Source: an uncultured Lachnospiraceae bacterium (GTDB lineage: Bacteria > Bacillota > Clostridia > Lachnospirales > Lachnospiraceae). From it: a stretch of 36,421 nt of DNA. The stretch is from positions 1 through 36,421 of the forward strand of contig CAJOID010000008.1 of assembly GCA_905234595.1 (NCBI GenBank), in the 5' to 3' direction. The stretch's first letter is position 1. Each line of letters opens with the position of its first letter. Positions 4,780 through 22,742 of this stretch are shown in pieces. The translations under genes were made by a program, and so were the position numbers. The notes beneath the pieces were generated by a model. That model had not been told where the DNA came from. It did no database searches and saw only the letters and a list, made by a program, of their open reading frames with translations.

Positions 4780-6216
4780 ATGTCAGAACAGGTTAAAAAA
4801 CCGGTCGGAATCATGGAAACAGTGCTGCGTGATGCTCATCAGTCCCTGATAGCAACCCGTATGCCTACCGAGGTTATGCTCCCGATCGTTGAAACTATGG
4901 ATAAAGTAGGATACGCTGCGGTAGAGTGCTGGGGCGGTGCTACATTTGATGCGTCACTCAGATTCCTCAAGGAGGATCCGTGGGACAGACTTCGTAAACT
5001 TCGTGACGGCTTCAAGAATACCAAACTGCAGATGCTTTTCCGCGGTCAGAATATTCTGGGTTACCGTCCTTACGCAGATGACGTTGTATATGCTTTTGTT
5101 GAGAGATCCATTGCAAACGGTATCGATGTCATCAGAATATTCGACTGCCTGAACGACCTGCGCAACCTGCAGGCAGCAGTAGATGCTACCAATAAGATCA
5201 AGAAGCAGGAGGGCAGAGGCGAATCACAGATCGCTCTGTCATATACACTCGGTGATGCATATACACTCGAGTATTGGGCAGATACAGCCAAGAAGATCGA
5301 GGAGATGGGTGCCGATTCCATCTGTATCAAGGATATGGCAGGTCTTCTCGTGCCTTACAGGGCTGCCGAACTTGTTAAGACTCTTAAAGAGAACACCAAG
5401 CTTCCCATCCAGCTTCATACTCACTATACATCCGGTGTAGCATCGATGACTTATCTGAAGGCAGTAGAGGCAGGTGTGGACATCATCGACTGCGCGATCT
5501 CACCTTTTGCACTCGGTACTTCACAGCCCGCTACAGAGGTTATGGTCGAGACATTCAAGGGTACCGAATACGATACCGGTTACGATCAGAAGATCCTGGC
5601 CGAGATCGCCGATTACTTCACGCCTTACAGAGAAGAGTGCTTAAAGAGCGGCCTGATGAGCACCAAGGTTCTCGGTGTGAATATCAAGACTCTTCTTTAT
5701 CAGGTTCCCGGCGGTATGCTCAGTAACATGGTCAGCCAGCTCAAAGAGCAGAATGCGGAAGACAAGTACAGAGAAGTTCTGGAGGAGATCCCGAGAGTCC
5801 GTAAGGATTGCGGTGAGCCTCCGCTGGTTACACCTTCATCTCAGATCGTCGGTACTCAGGCTATATTCAATGTCCTGATGGGCGAGAGATATAAGATGGC
5901 TACAGGTGAGTTTAAGGATCTGCTCCGCGGTAACTATGGTCAGACTATCAAGCCCATGAATCAGGAAGTTATCGATAAGGTTATTCCCGGCGAGCCTCGT
6001 TCGACAGCACGTTCTGCCGAAGCAACAGGCCGTACGGAGCCGGAGCTTGCTTCTCTTGAAGCCGAGATGAAGCAGTACAAGCAGCAGGAAGAGGATGTGC
6101 TGTCATATGCACTTTTCCCTCAGGTTGCCAAGGACTTCTTCGAGTATCGTGAAGCTCAGCAGACCGGTATTGACGGTGCTGCAGCCGATAAGGCAAACGG
6201 AGCTTATCCCGTTTAA
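4780..6216 (+). CDS. oadA: Oxaloacetate decarboxylase alpha subunit (carboxyltransferase, no biotin domain)
   Basis: TIM-barrel carboxyltransferase that moves CO2 between oxaloacetate/pyruvate and biotin. It shares the fold of the pyruvate carboxylase and transcarboxylase 5S domains. Visible active-site residues are Asp18 in LRDAHQS, the probably carboxylated Lys184 in CIKDMAG, and His213 and His215 in HTHYTSG, all metal-site positions of this family. CWGGATFD (50-57) and FRGQN (87-91) are also conserved. At 478 residues it stops where full-length OadA (about 590) continues into a biotinyl domain; that domain is supplied by the separate carrier gene. It is the last gene of the operon, followed after 16 bases by a terminator. 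Confidence 0.93.
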   Translation: MSEQVKKPVGIMETVLRDAHQSLIATRMPTEVMLPIVETMDKVGYAAVECWGGATFDASLRFLKEDPWDRLRKLRDGFKNTKLQMLFRGQNILGYRPYADDVVYAFVERSIANGIDVIRIFDCLNDLRNLQAAVDATNKIKKQEGRGESQIALSYTLGDAYTLEYWADTAKKIEEMGADSICIKDMAGLLVPYRAAELVKTLKENTKLPIQLHTHYTSGVASMTYLKAVEAGVDIIDCAISPFALGTSQPATEVMVETFKGTEYDTGYDQKILAEIADYFTPYREECLKSGLMSTKVLGVNIKTLLYQVPGGMLSNMVSQLKEQNAEDKYREVLEEIPRVRKDCGEPPLVTPSSQIVGTQAIFNVLMGERYKMATGEFKDLLRGNYGQTIKPMNQEVIDKVIPGEPRSTARSAEATGRTEPELASLEAEMKQYKQQEEDVLSYALFPQVAKDFFEYREAQQTGIDGAAADKANGAYPV

Positions 6217-6232
6217 TAATCAGGTATATTTT

Positions 6233-6270
6233 AAAACCCTCTGTCAGGACGACTTGACAGAGGGTTTTTT
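6233..6270 (+). terminator. Rho-independent terminator after the decarboxylase operon
   Basis: Arms 6233-6246 and 6255-6268 pair perfectly over 14 bases (core CCCTCTGTCA/TGACAGAGGG, flanked by A and T runs) around an 8-base loop. The T run reaches 6270. It begins 16 bases after the oadA stop and separates that operon from the TetR gene. Confidence 0.95.
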
Positions 6271-6280
6271 ATTGATTATA

Positions 6281-6294
6281 ATAACATACGTTAT
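6281..6294. promoter_or_regulatory. Small inverted repeat upstream of the TetR gene (candidate operator)
   Basis: ATAAC-ATAC-GTTAT is a perfect 5-base inverted repeat in the AT-rich gap between the terminator and the TetR gene, 41 bases before its start. TetR proteins often bind palindromes in their own promoters, so this is a candidate operator. It is short and lies in AT-rich DNA, so it could be chance. Confidence 0.3.
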
Positions 6295-6335
6295 AAGTTA
6301 ACATAATCTAAAGTTCCAAACGGGGGGATATAAGT

Positions 6336-6881
6336 ATGCCGAGAACTATTACCATTACCAGGGAGAATCTGATAGAAGCTGCCGTTTCACTGCTTAAGAG
6401 AGAAGGCATGAATGCGCTTACTGCACGTAAGCTTGCCAAAGAAGCAGGATGTTCCACGCAGCCCATATTCCGCGCATATCAGAATATGGAAGAACTCTAC
6501 GGAGATGTTTTCGGAGTGTGCGCAGATCTCTTTAACGAACACTGTGCTTCGTACAGCTCCGACAGTAATGTTCCTTTTGTTAATCTTGGACTCGCCTATA
6601 TCAGTTTTGCTCAGAATAATAAAGAGATCTTCAGGCTTCTTTTCCTGTCCGATAACAGATACGGCAGGAGTCTGGTGGAACTCTTAAACGGTGATACCGG
6701 CTTCCTGAAAGAACAGATCGCTTCGGCCAAGGCACAGGGCTCTGCTGATCCTCAGGGGCTGTTCATGAAGATGTGGATGCTCATCCACGGCAGTGCATGC
6801 ATGAGTCTGACCGATGATTACGATCTCGACATCAACGAGACACGTAAGCTGCTTGAAGATGCGGAGAAGGTATTTGCTTAA
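6336..6881 (+). CDS. TetR family transcriptional regulator
   Basis: One-component regulator of 181 residues. The N-terminal helix-turn-helix (about residues 7-52) is recognisable from LIEAAVSLLKREGMNALTAR followed by KLAKEAGCSTQPIFRAYQNM, with the usual Y-F-like contact region replaced by FRAYQN. The C-terminal ligand-binding half (TetR_C_WHG-like: FVNLGLAYISFAQNNKEIFR, then LFLSDNRYG) is typical of Firmicutes regulators of unknown ligand. A G-rich ribosome site (GGGGGG, 6322-6327) precedes the ATG. The stop codon directly abuts the ATG of the RpiR gene, so the two are probably translated together. The target genes are not evident. Confidence 0.88.
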   Translation: MPRTITITRENLIEAAVSLLKREGMNALTARKLAKEAGCSTQPIFRAYQNMEELYGDVFGVCADLFNEHCASYSSDSNVPFVNLGLAYISFAQNNKEIFRLLFLSDNRYGRSLVELLNGDTGFLKEQIASAKAQGSADPQGLFMKMWMLIHGSACMSLTDDYDLDINETRKLLEDAEKVFA

Positions 6882-7829
6882 ATGGATGGCAGGAAGGACT
6901 TCATTACCCGCATAAATGAGAATTTTGCGCGTATGAGCAAGGGCCAGAAGGCTATTGCGTCATACATATATGATAACTGTGAGCAGGCGGCTTTTATGAC
7001 TGCCGCGAAGATCGGTGAAGCAGTCCACGTATCGGAATCCACGGTTGTCAGATTTGCCACATTTCTGGGCTATGACGGGTATCCGGAATTTCAGCGTGAT
7101 CTGGTCGCATTTATCCAGGATAAACTGTCGGCTGTCTCCAAGATGGATGTGAGATACGGCAAGAGCAGCCAGTCCGATATACTGAATATGGTTCTCGGAT
7201 CCGATATCGAGAAGATACAGCATACGATCGAGAACCTTGATCCCGTGGCTTTCGAAACGGCAGTGGATTATATGCTGTCGTCCAAACATGTATATATCAT
7301 GGGCCTCAGAAGCTGCGAACCTCTGGCCAGATTTCTGCATTTTTATCTGAGTATGGTCCGTCCTGATGTCATACTGATCTCCACCACATCGGTGACCGAG
7401 ACTTTTGAACAGATGATACGTGTTTCGGATGAAGACTGCGTGGTAGGTATCAGTTTCCCGCGTTATTCCATGCGGACTCTCAAAGCGCTTGAATTTGCAA
7501 GTGACCGTAATGCCAAGGTCATAACCATAACAGATTCTGTATACAGTCCTCTTAATCTGTACAGTTCATGTAATCTGCTCGCCAGGAGCGATATGGTCTC
7601 CATCGTTGATTCGCTCGTGGCTCCTTTGAGTGTCATCAACGCCCTTGTCGTGGCGTTTGTGCTTAAATCACCCGATTCCACCAGAGAGAACCTCAAGAAT
7701 CTTGAGTTTGCCTGGAACAATTATCAGGTATACCTGAATGATGAGATCAATTTCATAGGTGATGAGCCGATGCTCAACGTTCCCTTATGGAAAAACAACA
7801 ATACCGATAACGAGAGTGATCAGTCCTGA
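6882..7829 (+). CDS. RpiR/MurR family transcriptional regulator (HTH + SIS)
   Basis: Regulator of 315 residues with an N-terminal HTH_6 domain (about 1-77) containing the typical HVSESTVVRFATFLGYDGYPE stretch (49-69; recognition helix around residues 50-62). A SIS phosphosugar-binding domain follows (about 125-260), including YIMGLRSCE and VVGISFPRYS. Family members usually sense a sugar phosphate and control sugar or amino-sugar genes, but no sugar gene lies nearby. There is no separate ribosome site; the ATG follows the TetR stop with zero gap. Its stop overlaps the next ATG by one base (TGATG), which suggests a coupled run of genes. The ligand is unknown. Confidence 0.9.
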   Translation: MDGRKDFITRINENFARMSKGQKAIASYIYDNCEQAAFMTAAKIGEAVHVSESTVVRFATFLGYDGYPEFQRDLVAFIQDKLSAVSKMDVRYGKSSQSDILNMVLGSDIEKIQHTIENLDPVAFETAVDYMLSSKHVYIMGLRSCEPLARFLHFYLSMVRPDVILISTTSVTETFEQMIRVSDEDCVVGISFPRYSMRTLKALEFASDRNAKVITITDSVYSPLNLYSSCNLLARSDMVSIVDSLVAPLSVINALVVAFVLKSPDSTRENLKNLEFAWNNYQVYLNDEINFIGDEPMLNVPLWKNNNTDNESDQS

Positions 7830-9043
7830 TGAAAACTGTGATCGTCGGCGGCGGTGCGGCCGGTATGATGGCTGCCATAGGAGCTTCCGAAAACGGTTCG
7901 GATACAGTGCTCCTCGAACGCAATGAAAAACTCGGCAAAAAGATATATATCACCGGCAAGGGCAGATGTAATCTGACCAATGACTGTCCGCGTGATGATC
8001 TTATGAAGCATGTGGTCAGAAACCCCAAGTTTCTGTACTCGGCTTTCAGCTCATATGATAATTCGGATATCATCGGGCTCATGCATGAGCAGGGTACCGA
8101 TACCAAGGTTGAAAGAGGCGGAAGGGTTTTCCCGGTATCCGACCATGCTTCCGATGTGATCAGGGCTCTTCACAGAAAGCTTGATTCATTGGGCGTTGAG
8201 ATCCGATTGAATACACGTGTAACTGAGCTTATGATCTCGGAGGGGCGATTATGCGGAGTCAGGACGGCTTCGGGGGAATCTGTTACGGCCGACCGGGTCA
8301 TAATCGCAAGCGGAGGTGCGAGTTATCCGACTACGGGCTCCGATGGGAGCATGTACGAACTTTTGAGTAAAGCCGGACACAGTATCCTGGAACCCAGACC
8401 TTCTCTGGTACCGTTCATATGCTCCGAAGAGTGGATTCCGTCTGTTCAGGGACTATCTCTTAGGAATGTGACTCTTACTCTGACAAGAAACGGCAAAAAG
8501 GTGTATGAAGAGCTCGGTGAAATGCTTTTTACCGGCAATGGGGTGAGCGGGCCCCTGGCTCTGTCGGCGAGTTCTTATTATGAGCCGGGGGATAAACTGG
8601 TCATCGATCTGAAGCCCGGGCTTGGCTCCGACAAGCTTGATGAAAGAATACTCAGAGACTTTAAGGAGAATAATAACCGTGATTTTTCGAATTCTCTGGA
8701 TGCACTGCTTCCCAGAAGCCTGATCCCGGTGATAGTGAAGCTGTCGGGCATAGAAGCAGGCAAGAAGGTGCATCAGATAACACAGGAAGAGAGAAAGGAT
8801 CTGTGCCGTCTCTTAAAGAATCTCGAGCTTACGCCTGAAGAAACCGGCGGGTTTAACGAAGCCATAGTCACCCGGGGCGGTGTAAATGTAAAAGAAATAG
8901 ACCCTTCGACCATGCAGTCACGCATTTTGCCGGGGCTGTCTCTGGCCGGTGAGGTGATAGATGTTGATGCTCTGACCGGAGGATTTAACCTTCAGATCGC
9001 CTGGTCTACCGGATATCTGGCAGGATCAAGAGCTTTTTGGTAA
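7829..9043 (+). CDS. HI0933/YhiN-family FAD-dependent oxidoreductase
   Basis: Flavoprotein of 404 residues. The N-terminal dinucleotide-binding motif VGGGAAGMMAA (6-16) and the family signature GKKIYITGKGRCNLTN (35-50) define the HI0933-like group, often named aminoacetone oxidase or YhiN. The C-terminal VTRGGVNVKEIDP and LAGEVIDVDALTGGFNLQIA stretches complete the FAD fold. The physiological substrate is unknown for most members. It is translationally linked to the RpiR gene by a one-base overlap and is followed 17 bases later by cmk. That order (flavoprotein, cmk, ispH, S1) is common in Lachnospiraceae. Confidence 0.9.
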   Translation: MKTVIVGGGAAGMMAAIGASENGSDTVLLERNEKLGKKIYITGKGRCNLTNDCPRDDLMKHVVRNPKFLYSAFSSYDNSDIIGLMHEQGTDTKVERGGRVFPVSDHASDVIRALHRKLDSLGVEIRLNTRVTELMISEGRLCGVRTASGESVTADRVIIASGGASYPTTGSDGSMYELLSKAGHSILEPRPSLVPFICSEEWIPSVQGLSLRNVTLTLTRNGKKVYEELGEMLFTGNGVSGPLALSASSYYEPGDKLVIDLKPGLGSDKLDERILRDFKENNNRDFSNSLDALLPRSLIPVIVKLSGIEAGKKVHQITQEERKDLCRLLKNLELTPEETGGFNEAIVTRGGVNVKEIDPSTMQSRILPGLSLAGEVIDVDALTGGFNLQIAWSTGYLAGSRAFW

Positions 9044-19034: not shown

Positions 19035-19117
19035 GCCGGCGTGGCGGAATGGCAGACGCGGCAGACTCAAAATCTGTTATGGGCGACCATGTGCGGGTTC
19101 AAGTCCCGCCGCCGGCA
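19035..19117 (+). tRNA. tRNA-Leu (anticodon CAA)
   Basis: The cloverleaf is complete. The acceptor stem GCCGGCG pairs with CGCCGGC, with discriminator A at 19117. The anticodon stem is GCAGA/TCTGT with one G-U pair around loop CTCAAAA, giving anticodon CAA for UUG. A long class-II variable arm is present, and the T-arm is GCGGG-TTCAAGT-CCCGC. The 3' CCA is not encoded. The length of 83 bases fits leucine tRNA. Confidence 0.95.
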
Positions 19118-19182
19118 TTTAAAAATGTAAAACCCCGGTATGCGGGACTTGAACCGTAGTGCAAAGTCCCGCCGCCGGCATT
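19096..19182 (+). repeat. Direct and inverted copies of the tRNA-Leu 3' end
   Basis: The 19 bases at 19101-19119 (T-arm end, acceptor and ATT) recur exactly at 19164-19182. In addition, 14 bases at 19142-19155 are the exact reverse complement of tRNA bases 19096-19109. The inverted copy can form a 9-bp hairpin with the second direct copy (19142-19150 with 19164-19172). Direct repeats of a tRNA 3' end mark attachment sites, but only about 45 bases separate these, so a local duplication or an excision scar is more likely. Confidence 0.85.
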
Positions 19183-19203
19183 CCCGAGAGAAAGGATAAT
19201 AAT

Positions 19204-20217
19204 ATGATCTGTCCTAAATGTGGAGCGGAAGTAGCAGACGGTGTTAAATTCTGCGGCAACTGCGGCAATCCCATGTCAGAACCCGCACAACCCGTCACCG
19301 AAGCTTCAAATGTATATGTATCTCAACCGGATAATACAGCCTCTCAGACAGCTCCTCCGGCATACGCACAGGCTCCTTATACTCAGCCCGCTCAGCCGAA
19401 GAAGTCAAAGACCTGGCTGATAATCCTTGTCATCGTTCTTGCGGTAGTATTACTGATCGGCGGTGCCATAGCTTGGTTCGTTCATACGGTAAGAAAGGCG
19501 ACCAGCACATATCTTGAAGAGATCGAGGACAGTTACGAATCTCTAGATGATATCGATATCGACATCGAAGGACTCGATGACGCTGTCGAATCCATGGAAT
19601 CGCTTGATTTTACTGATTCTCTTGATGATATTGATTTATCTGTAGATACAGATGATCTCGGTACTGATACGGAATCTGATACCGGTGTCGGCAGTAATGC
19701 GGAAGAGTACGCATACAGTTATACCGATGTTACGATTGCCGGCAACGACATCACGATCATTCCGAACGGCAAACTGAATGGCTCCACCGTTTTATATGGC
19801 GGCAAGGATCTGGAAGGTTTTCTTGATTACGTAGATGATACGGTACTTATGGAAGGCAGATACATAAACAGGGAGTTCTTCTATGATCTGCTGTCGACCA
19901 TGCTCGTAGATGAGAGTATGTACCCCAACTTTGATGATATCGAGAGCAATATGATCATGTGTCTGGCCATGGCAGACAACTTCTATAGCATGGATGTACG
20001 TGTAAAAGAGGCAGATCTTGATGCAAATAATGCAGCCGAATATCATTATCAGGTCAAGGCTGAAAACAGGGATGATATCTGGATCGTGAACTACGGTGAG
20101 AGAACCGTGTACTTTAATGACGGCAAGACAGAGTATTCATCAGATATGTTTAAGGACGAATATCTGGCTATGTGGTGGATGGCCATTGATGACTACTATG
20201 GCCATGAGTCCTACTGA
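19204..20217 (+). CDS. Zinc-ribbon membrane protein of unknown function
   Basis: The 337-residue protein begins with a zinc ribbon (MICPKCGAEV, then FCGNCG; Cys3, Cys6, Cys17, Cys20). A Pro/Gln/Thr-rich linker leads to one membrane helix at about 77-98 (WLIILVIVLAVVLLIGGAIA). A strongly acidic segment rich in Asp-Ile-Asp repeats (about 110-160) and a C-terminal domain of about 170 residues follow, predicted to be outside the cell. Clostridia carry many zinc-ribbon-plus-helix proteins of this kind with no known role. The start follows AGAAAGGA at 19188-19195. An upstream in-frame ATG at 19159 lies within the tRNA-copy region and was rejected. Its stop overlaps the convergent gene by 7 bases. 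Confidence 0.8.
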   Translation: MICPKCGAEVADGVKFCGNCGNPMSEPAQPVTEASNVYVSQPDNTASQTAPPAYAQAPYTQPAQPKKSKTWLIILVIVLAVVLLIGGAIAWFVHTVRKATSTYLEEIEDSYESLDDIDIDIEGLDDAVESMESLDFTDSLDDIDLSVDTDDLGTDTESDTGVGSNAEEYAYSYTDVTIAGNDITIIPNGKLNGSTVLYGGKDLEGFLDYVDDTVLMEGRYINREFFYDLLSTMLVDESMYPNFDDIESNMIMCLAMADNFYSMDVRVKEADLDANNAAEYHYQVKAENRDDIWIVNYGERTVYFNDGKTEYSSDMFKDEYLAMWWMAIDDYYGHESY

Positions 20218-22742
20218 TCTTCATCGAGCTCGGATTCGGCACCGGCACTGACGGTTTCAATGATCTGTTCGGCCATTGTGCGCATTTCGGGTGACATATA
20301 TTCAATGAAAGGTACATCGCGCAGCTCCAGAATGTGATGCTCTTTCAGATAAATGATCTCTCTGCTGTGTTCAGCAATGAATGAGCGGGGTGCATGCTGT
20401 ATGAACAGTGCAGCGGCATCCTGCTCTTTGCATATCCAGTTCCAGTGACCTGATTCGCTGATGCTGTCATAGTATTTCATGGCCCGTCTGAACCAAAGAT
20501 CCGGATCGGGTTCATGGAAGCATCTGATATTGCTTCCGCGCGTGATCTTATCCAGGATGCTGATCACGTTATCATAGTAATATCCCTCGTAATTGGATAT
20601 CGAACCGGTTTCCGTATTATCCGAGAAATAATTCCTGGATATGTCTATGACTATGGGATCCGCATAGATGATGAACAGGTCTTCGAGCCATTCTATACGT
20701 TCATTCAGGCTCTTGAACACCTTCTTGACCTTGTTCACCTTGTTATCAACGGCTGATATGGATGGAATACGCGATCTTATAAGTATTATCTTGGTATGGT
20801 CATAGGCTTCCAGTATACCGTTGGCCAGCATCTCAATATAAGCCGTACATATATCGGTAGCATCGGGCTGATCGATCTCTTCGAAGTCATCCTTGTGATC
20901 CTTGTAGAAATCGGACAGGAAAAAGGCATCGTTGGCGGTGTAGTATGTTTCACCCAGCTTAAGAAGTTTAAGAGATGCAGCGGCATAGAAGTCGAGCAGA
21001 CAGTAGTCGTTCGGATTATGAGATCTCTTAAGCAGCGGTGACTTGGCAATATCGGCATTTACCCTTATGTATTTGGTGTTGGCATATTCCGGATGGGGCT
21101 CGCCCGATATAGATGCGGGAGAGATCAGTATGTGCTCCAGATCTACATCATAACGCTCAATACCTTCAAACAGAGCTCTTAATATAACCGAACCGAAGCA
21201 CTGTATATGAGGTTTGAGCATAGGGATGTTGATACTGCCCATTACGTAGTTGATACGGCTGTTGGCCTCGACTTCCTCATATGCGAGAGGATAATCGATG
21301 GGTTCGACCGATATGTCGTTTTTGAGTATTCTGGTGTAAAAGGGAATATATGAAACAGATGAAACGATCTCATCATCATCTCTCGTAAGATCGACAACAA
21401 GGGCTGCCGCATCCCTGCTTCCGGTCATTTCCTTCATGGTGGTCATGAAGTTGCCGAGTGAGTAAGCACACGGGACGCGCTTGCCGGTGATCGAGGTTAA
21501 GTATTCGGTCTTCTGGACCAGATGGGGATGGGTGCCCACTATCAGATCGGCACCGCAGTCTGCGATAAACTGAGCCGCTTTCTGCTGTGGTTCACTGACG
21601 GAATATGAATTCATATTGCCCCAGTGCATGTATACGGTTATGAACTCGGCGCCGCTGTCTTTGGCAGTCTTGATCAGGTTTTTGCAATTCTCCTTAGTAT
21701 AACGGCCGGTCGTGAGTCCTGTACCCGATTCATCGACCTCACCGTCAAGACCGTTACTGATCATCGTCAGAGCTATAACGGCGATCTTGATCCCGGCGGA
21801 ATAGATATATACGGGATTATCATAATAGGTTCCGCAATTGATCATGCCTTTGCGCTTGATCAGAGACACCGTCTCTTTTAAACCGGCAGCGCCGCAATCG
21901 CAGTTGTGGTTATTGGCAGTGATCAATACATCAAAGCCCGTGTTCCTGAGAGCATCCAGAAATGTTGAAGGGGAATTACAATTCGAGCCTCCCTTGGCGG
22001 TGCGCAGCTGTTCCCATTCATAAGGGGAATTGTCGTAAGTCACGGTCTCAAGATTGCCTATGACGTGATCGGCTCCGGCGAACCTTTCACCGGCTTTGGC
22101 CAGAGAGGGAGTGAAATCATAATCATACAGAGCGGCTTTACGCTGATGCCAGGCGGTACACATGAGATCGCCGGTAAAAATGATACGTCCCATACCCTGT
22201 ACGAATTTATTGTAATTTCTGTCAACAGATACGGATGTGACGGCTTCCGTACCATCAGGAAGGGTGATGATGATATCCGCCTCACCTGTCCCCATAGCAG
22301 TGATATCGCCGTTATCATTGACTTCGGCTACGGACGGATTGTTGGATTCAAAATGCGGATAGGTAAATGCGTTACCGTCTTTGTATTTATAATCGATATG
22401 ATATATTTCACCGGTCTTTAAGCATATCTTGGCAGGCACCTTAAGGCCTTCGCAGACAGGGGTAAACGAGATCCTGGGCGATTCCTCTCCGTAGAATTCA
22501 TCGCATTCCTCATCACGCCAGAATGCTGCTATGGATACATAGTATTCCACATCATTCTTGAAACCTCTGACGATCTTTCCCGTTTTTTCCGTCATGCGTA
22601 CGCGGAATGGGATGGCATCATCCGGACTCCTGAAAAACGACAGTCTGTAACCGGCAGCTCCTTTGACCGTATCAAAGAAGAATCTTGCATATTCGTCATA
22701 TGTTTCGGCGCGAAGATTGGTGGGTGCGATCAATTCATTCAT
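20211..22742 (-). CDS. CapA-family protein with Fn3-like, Big2-like and DUF6270-like domains
   Basis: Large protein of 843 residues. Residues 1-97 look like a fibronectin type III domain and 98-180 like a bacterial Ig-like (Big2) domain (SNNPSVAEVNDNGDITAMGTG). Residues 185-470 are a CapA/PGA_cap metallophosphatase-like domain with GD (191-192), NLE (230-232), NNHNCD (277-282), HWG (373-375), GTHPH (403-407) and SLGNF (428-432). The C-terminal part (about 505-735: CFGSVILRALF, LLDFYAAASLKLLKLGETYY, IDISRNYFSD) resembles the SGNH-like DUF6270 family of surface-polysaccharide loci. No signal peptide or membrane helix is visible, unlike classical CapA. The function is not established; a role in capsule or wall polymer handling is inferred from family only. 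Confidence 0.8.
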   Translation of the reverse strand: MNELIAPTNLRAETYDEYARFFFDTVKGAAGYRLSFFRSPDDAIPFRVRMTEKTGKIVRGFKNDVEYYVSIAAFWRDEECDEFYGEESPRISFTPVCEGLKVPAKICLKTGEIYHIDYKYKDGNAFTYPHFESNNPSVAEVNDNGDITAMGTGEADIIITLPDGTEAVTSVSVDRNYNKFVQGMGRIIFTGDLMCTAWHQRKAALYDYDFTPSLAKAGERFAGADHVIGNLETVTYDNSPYEWEQLRTAKGGSNCNSPSTFLDALRNTGFDVLITANNHNCDCGAAGLKETVSLIKRKGMINCGTYYDNPVYIYSAGIKIAVIALTMISNGLDGEVDESGTGLTTGRYTKENCKNLIKTAKDSGAEFITVYMHWGNMNSYSVSEPQQKAAQFIADCGADLIVGTHPHLVQKTEYLTSITGKRVPCAYSLGNFMTTMKEMTGSRDAAALVVDLTRDDDEIVSSVSYIPFYTRILKNDISVEPIDYPLAYEEVEANSRINYVMGSINIPMLKPHIQCFGSVILRALFEGIERYDVDLEHILISPASISGEPHPEYANTKYIRVNADIAKSPLLKRSHNPNDYCLLDFYAAASLKLLKLGETYYTANDAFFLSDFYKDHKDDFEEIDQPDATDICTAYIEMLANGILEAYDHTKIILIRSRIPSISAVDNKVNKVKKVFKSLNERIEWLEDLFIIYADPIVIDISRNYFSDNTETGSISNYEGYYYDNVISILDKITRGSNIRCFHEPDPDLWFRRAMKYYDSISESGHWNWICKEQDAAALFIQHAPRSFIAEHSREIIYLKEHHILELRDVPFIEYMSPEMRTMAEQIIETVSAGAESELDEDQ

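Follow-up and report, generated by a model that had tools for sequence, protein, structure and literature searches.

The window analysed here is a 36,421-nucleotide (nt) stretch of DNA from an uncultured Lachnospiraceae bacterium (contig CAJOID010000008.1, positions 1–36,421). Its reverse strand carries an open reading frame (ORF) at 20211–22742 encoding 843 amino acids (aa), exactly as claimed in an initial annotation made from the sequence alone. The annotation read the product as a fusion of Fn3, Big2, CapA and DUF6270-like domains without a secretion signal, and these domain calls held: CapA was found strongly and Big_2 at the borderline by Pfam, and Fn3 and DUF6270 were found by profile-profile comparison. 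The order along the protein is Fn3, Big_2, CapA (PGA_cap), a divergent DUF6270-like domain and a helical tail, as follows:

20211–22742, reverse strand: entire ORF of 843 aa; the four open codons upstream include no start codon
22449–22742, reverse strand: Fn3 domain, aa 1–98; hhalign 94.6% against 16 Fn3 domains, Pfam silent
22215–22448, reverse strand: Big_2 domain, aa 99–176; borderline Pfam match and matches to Ig-like repeats
21423–22193, reverse strand: CapA/PGA_cap calcineurin-like domain, aa 184–440; Pfam E 5.8e-50
21237–21422, reverse strand: CapA tail or linker, aa 441–502, from the last CapA profile position to the DUF6270-like domain
20517–21236, reverse strand: divergent DUF6270-like domain, aa 503–742; hhalign 97.2% against 8 DUF6270 domains, and motif alignment
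20250–20516, reverse strand: C-terminal helical tail, aa 743–831; mostly helical in the AlphaFold2 (AF2) model, with a predicted local distance difference test score (pLDDT) of 72–86 for aa 771–830

The fusion combines known domains in a new way, is conserved in one genus and has at least one distant relative; this architecture was not described in the literature searched.

Conservation and domain composition of the fusion

A genome search found the fusion gene in 7/7 genomes of its genus (in G398 as two separate matches within one frame), the encoded proteins being as little as 41% identical to the window protein. Divergence from the window gene at the first, second and third codon positions, counted for five orthologs with G041 left out, was 0.20/0.15/0.55 in G400, 0.20/0.16/0.55 in G397, 0.32/0.23/0.59 in G399, 0.32/0.22/0.58 in G357 and 0.44/0.39/0.63 in G398. 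A chance ORF was rejected on the basis of these five comparisons and the presence of the gene in all seven genomes; judged by its codon pattern, the ORF is a real gene under purifying selection.

The PGA_cap match at aa 187–434 scored 170.6 bits against a Pfam cut-off of 27, and the family was above the cut-off in all seven orthologs. The Big_2 match at aa 131–169 scored 20.6 bits with hmmscan and 24.0 bits in a six-frame search (cut-off 22.8), and was seen in every ortholog. The ortholog profile of aa 121–172 matched solved Ig-like repeats (a teneurin-like protein, E 4.7e-9), and aa 131–170 had a pLDDT of about 66–82 inside an otherwise poor model. With the HMMER filters on, neither Pfam fn3 nor Pfam DUF6270 matched the window protein at E-values up to 10. 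Thus, a domain search at the annotated positions recovered CapA by Pfam, whereas the DUF6270 part failed by Pfam and was recovered by profile-profile comparison only. The query profiles were sub-alignments of the seven orthologs, and the genomes that supplied the DUF6270 targets belong to the same family or phylum. The Fn3-like region (aa 1–99) matched 16 Fn3 domains from genomes in the same family with P 6.8e-8, and the DUF6270-like region matched the eight DUF6270 domains colinearly over 215 columns with E 3.6e-11, the E-value of each such match applying to that one comparison. Controls with reversed targets stayed at 0.4% for either region and 20 column shuffles gave at most 1.7% (Fn3) and 1.2% (DUF6270), while mismatched domain pairs reached no more than 0.6% (0.8% with reversed targets). 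The 16 Fn3 domains were taken from 30 loci, L117 being left out together with four loci cut by contig ends and nine open on both strands. Of 11 DUF6270 loci, eight formed the core profile and L080 served separately; L079 and L081 (a fragment and a broken frame) were excluded. A DUF6270 match above the Pfam cut-off occurred in one of the seven genus members: the G398 ortholog is 1095 aa long, and its additional C-terminal domain passes the cut-off with 35.5 bits. The helical tail is kept across the genus.

The fusion occurs in all seven genus genomes, and one distant homolog (L129, below) has a similar order of parts. In a search of 397 genomes of the family, near-full-length matches were confined to the genus among those listed. 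Among these listed matches, at least one at E 1e-10 or better occurred in 289 of the 397. The DUF6270-like part was found in 2/394 non-genus genomes of the family sample, and the class sample (391 genomes, overlapping the family sample) returned the window's own copy only. Above 12 bits, neither the Fn3-like N-terminus nor the DUF6270-like part had a match in any of the other CapA frames (36 loci, L016–L042 and L133–L141, the latter nine hand-picked from the family search and L138 repeating L030); L134 matched the Big_2 part.

The distant homolog came from a tblastn search of a phage collection, in which MT835777.1 covered 95% of the query at 22% identity and was the only one of 29 matched records to cover at least 80%. 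Among 47 matched records of a plasmid collection, none matched over 80% of the query, and no relative was confirmed when viral_contigs was scanned by pattern. The homolog (5314–8994 of MT835777.1, 1226 aa) aligned with aa 21–810 of the window protein at 136 bits in a single comparison. By profile, it contains an Fn3-like part (43%), a second weak Fn3-like stretch (14%), CapA (99.3%), a first DUF6270-like domain (97.9% against the genus domain) and a helical part that is a weak counterpart of the tail (82%), with shuffled controls at 4.1% or less. A second DUF6270-like domain scored 94.4% against a set including the G398 and G078 copies and 7.9% against the genus domain. The homolog thus resembles the window protein in its order of Fn3-like, beta, CapA, DUF6270-like and helical parts, and differs in having the weak Fn3-like stretch in the place of Big_2 and an additional DUF6270-like domain.

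A phage origin was rejected for this record: MT835777.1, entitled "UNVERIFIED: Bacteriophage sp.", reads by eye as a bacterial contig, with genes for ribosomal protein L13, uracil-DNA glycosylase, phosphofructokinase, xylulokinase, transaldolase and GlyA. No phage gene was recognised by eye among its ORFs of at least 120 aa (L129 1–18358), and the record appears misclassified; L130 (MT836570.1) likewise reads as bacterial. A 598-aa protein (L129 3500–5296), weakly similar to C5-epimerases and other families, all below their cut-offs, ends 17 bases before the homolog and is a possible functional partner of it. Staphylococcus phages (records H5–H10, for example OR354847.1 10959–11807) carry CapA-like genes annotated as 'hypothetical protein' with about 28% identity to aa 207–483, and a PHROGs family without assigned function, phrog_23677, matches aa 250–461 (E 3.5e-19).

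Metal site of CapA and lost histidine of the DUF6270-like domain

Eight CapA residues, D192, E232, N278, H279, D282, H373, H405 and H407, are invariant in the seven orthologs. Over the CapA region, MslH entries are the only structures matched in the PDB, and in the main phmmer segment E232, N278, H279 and D282 align with MslH Glu44, Asn87, His88 and Asp91; H407 falls on His295, in a second segment that scores just 3 bits. Mutation of any of these five residues abolished the activity of MslH (PMC10406935). MslH has Gly at the position of H405 (in the weak 3-bit segment), whereas the window protein keeps the HxH pair H405 and H407. Judged by the comparison of MslH with YmdB in the same paper (PMC10406935), this pair may fit a two-metal arrangement.

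The DUF6270-like domain keeps a Gly-Ser pair (517–518, present in 7/7 orthologs), D584 and N680. The C-terminal His of the family is found in 8/11 other DUF6270 domains and in none of the seven genus members, which have Asn, Glu or Asp instead. DUF6270 (PF19786) is presumably a member of the SGNH clan, and the conserved His would then be catalytic, as in SGNH enzymes. The DUF6270 profile matched no SGNH structure, its best PDB matches being unrelated (E 0.03 or worse), and the name DUF6270 was absent from the literature searched. The window domain is like DUF6270 in its colinearity and in its GS, Asp and Asn, and unlike it in falling below Pfam detection and in the replaced His. Since the Ser is also missing in 2/11 other DUF6270 domains, the family itself tolerates such loss. 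The initial suggestion of one protein with two polymer-modifying activities is thus only half supported: the CapA half has intact metal residues, and the DUF6270 half lacks the His.

An alternative is that the protein is mainly a scaffold or sensor, whose modules would bind a polymer precursor and partner proteins while catalytic residues are being lost piecemeal across the family. The missing His in all seven orthologs agrees with this, as do the second DUF6270 or DUF6270-like domain of two members and the L129 homolog, which preserves the domain order though it retains only D192 of the eight metal residues. We nevertheless consider this alternative rather unlikely, since the invariance of all eight residues in the genus, at identities down to 41%, suggests selection for a working site.

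Location inside or outside the cell

Preceding the ATG of the window gene, only four codons are open (W-G-I-Q) and none is a start, so that an upstream start adding a signal peptide was rejected for this gene. By hydropathy, with no dedicated predictor run, the window protein has no signal peptide or N-terminal membrane segment: the 19-residue Kyte-Doolittle maximum is 0.39 within aa 1–60 and 1.73 overall, the latter at aa 311 inside CapA. The absence of a secretion signal, as initially annotated, therefore holds. The first 60 residues of all seven orthologs, with starts chosen by alignment, reach 0.16–0.44. Among the six other orthologs, four have no upstream start codon and G399 has a TTG six codons upstream. 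The L129 homolog has no segment above 1.32 and no visible signal.

We compared 48 CapA proteins (the CapA match L006 of the window's own genome gave no row) and found a hydrophobic 19-residue segment (mean at least 1.6) upstream of CapA in 36. The 12 without it are the seven genus members, L071, L073, L129, L038 (1.51) and L072 (1.14, ambiguous). L071, L073 and the ambiguous L072 are from the same genome as the window; L073 (7936–9144, 402 aa), the third signal-less CapA protein of this genome, adjoins by eye a flagellin-like gene on the opposite strand. The Cys content of the CapA domain averaged 2.76% in the genus, 2.98% in three other signal-less proteins and 0.75% in the ambiguous L072, compared with 1.07% in the other 37 proteins (36 of them with the upstream segment), none of which reaches the value of the window protein. 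Whole proteins contain 13–23 Cys in the genus and 30 in the L129 homolog. Cysteine exclusion in Gram-positive bacteria is described in PMC9974433 and PMC4628341, which cite Daniels 2010. A cytoplasmic location is the simpler reading and, judged by the indirect evidence of the Cys content and of two further CapA proteins in this genome that lack a signal, most likely the correct one.

Export without a classical signal, for example by release on lysis or by an unknown route, would place the protein at the surface, where it could act like its Fn3, Big_2 and CapA relatives. It is consistent with this that the nearest CapA domains lie in proteins with an upstream hydrophobic segment and that the N-terminus of L090, a further Big_2 protein encoded in this genome, looks like a signal. 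The lack of a signal in the window gene, in the six other orthologs from their aligned starts and in the L129 homolog speaks against it, as do the many cysteines and the joining of DUF6270 to GT2 or pyruvyl transferase domains in 4/8 proteins scanned, and we regard such export as improbable. Of the two options in the initial annotation, action inside the cell on polysaccharide precursors is the better supported, by the signal-less CapA proteins, the GT2 and pyruvyl transferase fusions, the G078 gene cluster described below and the Cys content, while we found no positive evidence for an unusual export route.

Proposed function and comparison with known systems

The substrate class can be approached through the relatives of the two halves. 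In the eight proteins of the core DUF6270 profile, a Pfam scan detected a GT2 glycosyltransferase domain in three, FrhB with a polysaccharide pyruvyl transferase domain in one, FrhB alone in one and no second domain in three. Outside the genus, the DUF6270-like part has its best relative in G078, where the surrounding genes (Glyphos_transf, IspD-like, ADH, GT2, ABC-2 exporter and Bac_transf) resemble a set for polyol-phosphate glycopolymer synthesis. In the window's own genome, the CapA-FkbM fusion L071 (5857–8376) adjoins Glyphos_transf and IspD-like genes. By association with these contexts, a phosphate-containing glycopolymer precursor is favoured as the putative substrate.

We tentatively propose that the window protein, a PGA_cap family member, may be soluble and cytoplasmic and may handle the precursors from which a phosphate-containing surface glycopolymer is made. 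CapA, with its complete metal site, would most likely perform metal-dependent chemistry on the precursor, namely phosphoester cleavage or a related step, whereas the likeliest role of the DUF6270-like domain, which has lost its His, and of the Fn3/Big_2 pair would be to bind the substrate or partner proteins or to hold them in position. We infer the location, the substrate class and the choice of the catalytic domain in this explanation.

Several observations weigh against the proposal. The AF2 models of the full-length protein and of its C-terminal part both have a mean pLDDT of 41. The window gene is surrounded by housekeeping genes (Rnf, zinc-ribbon, zf-HC2, polA and coaE) with no glycan cluster, and therefore its neighbours give no hint of the substrate; the other outside relative (G385) is by eye also surrounded by housekeeping genes. 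The L129 homolog, with one of eight metal residues, indicates that the family as a whole does not depend on catalysis. The G041 ortholog has an in-frame ATG 52 codons further upstream, from which the protein would gain a stretch with hydropathy up to 1.55; a TTG and a GTG lie nearer, and the aligned start was used. A Mann-Whitney test on the Cys content is not independent, the seven genus rows being related. In the tree of the 48 proteins, the window CapA groups with the exported-type L016–L018 (support 97/87) and stands apart from the other signal-less CapA proteins of its genome; L071, L073, L129 and the L070 protein are on long branches and their positions are unsure. Three of the eight CapA cysteines of the window protein (195, 255 and 425) are common to L016–L018, which carry 6–7 Cys, and the cysteine argument therefore partly reflects ancestry. 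Because these nearest domains are of the exported type, an exported branch is the most likely origin of the CapA module, which is now in a protein without a signal.

That the protein, like MslH, tailors a ribosomal peptide, as an epimerase or otherwise, is very unlikely: the NCBIfam MslH model (NF038314) matches with E 8.7e-13, and MslH supplies the PDB matches over CapA, but the score is 47.4 bits against a cut-off of 700, the HxH pair is kept, and no peptide biosynthesis gene was present among the eight neighbours scanned.

Beyond a soluble cytoplasmic enzyme acting on glycopolymer precursors, a wider and more speculative reading, which we think doubtful, is that soluble CapA-DUF6270 proteins form a family that apparently extends beyond a single bacterial group. 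Its modules would have begun outside the cell and been brought inside, the inactivated catalytic centre would differ between members, and the proteins would serve as cytoplasmic scaffolds or checkpoints of surface-glycopolymer assembly. If so, the DUF6270 centre would be off in this genus and the CapA centre off in the gut homolog. No such scaffold or checkpoint role was found described for any CapA protein in the literature searched.

At the 3' end, the fusion gene overlaps convergently with the zinc-ribbon protein gene (Pfam; 19159–20217, forward strand):

20211–20217: 7-nt overlap of the two 3' ends

The comparable overlap in G400 is 16 nt. The zinc-ribbon gene and polA are near the fusion gene in 6/7 genus genomes; in G398 the fusion gene adjoins an HMGL-like gene instead. 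An Rfam tRNA match (59.7 bits) lies at 19035–19117 on the forward strand, directly upstream of the zinc-ribbon gene.

CapA proteins occur widely, and they usually figure as components of exported or membrane complexes; to our knowledge the chemistry of most of them is unsettled. A soluble, signal-less and conserved CapA fusion, if the proposal is true, would allow a CapA domain to be purified and assayed without membranes, with the L129 homolog and its lost metal site as a natural built-in comparison; the analysis of the fusion also places DUF6270 next to glycopolymer assembly. Like the window protein, the CapA-FkbM fusion of the same genome has a CapA without a membrane segment joined to another domain, and its locus lies beside glycopolymer genes. 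It differs in that its CapA is in another (long) branch of the tree, FkbM methyltransferase takes the place of DUF6270, and Pfam detects neither Fn3 nor Big_2. MslH, the lasso-peptide epimerase (PDB 8gq9 and relatives), shares the five essential residues that align, one of them in the weak segment, whereas the window protein is far below the family cut-off, has an additional HxH histidine and carries other fused domains. The CapA/PgsA proteins of poly-gamma-glutamate synthases (PF09587) share the full-length PGA_cap domain and the metal-site motifs. No capB or capC was found among the eight neighbouring genes scanned, the remaining genome not being searched for them. As described in PMC5751247, PgsA binds the membrane through a hydrophobic segment and has partners in its operon, whereas the window protein has no membrane segment (19-residue hydropathy upstream of CapA at most 0.91) and carries fused Fn3, Big_2 and DUF6270-like parts.

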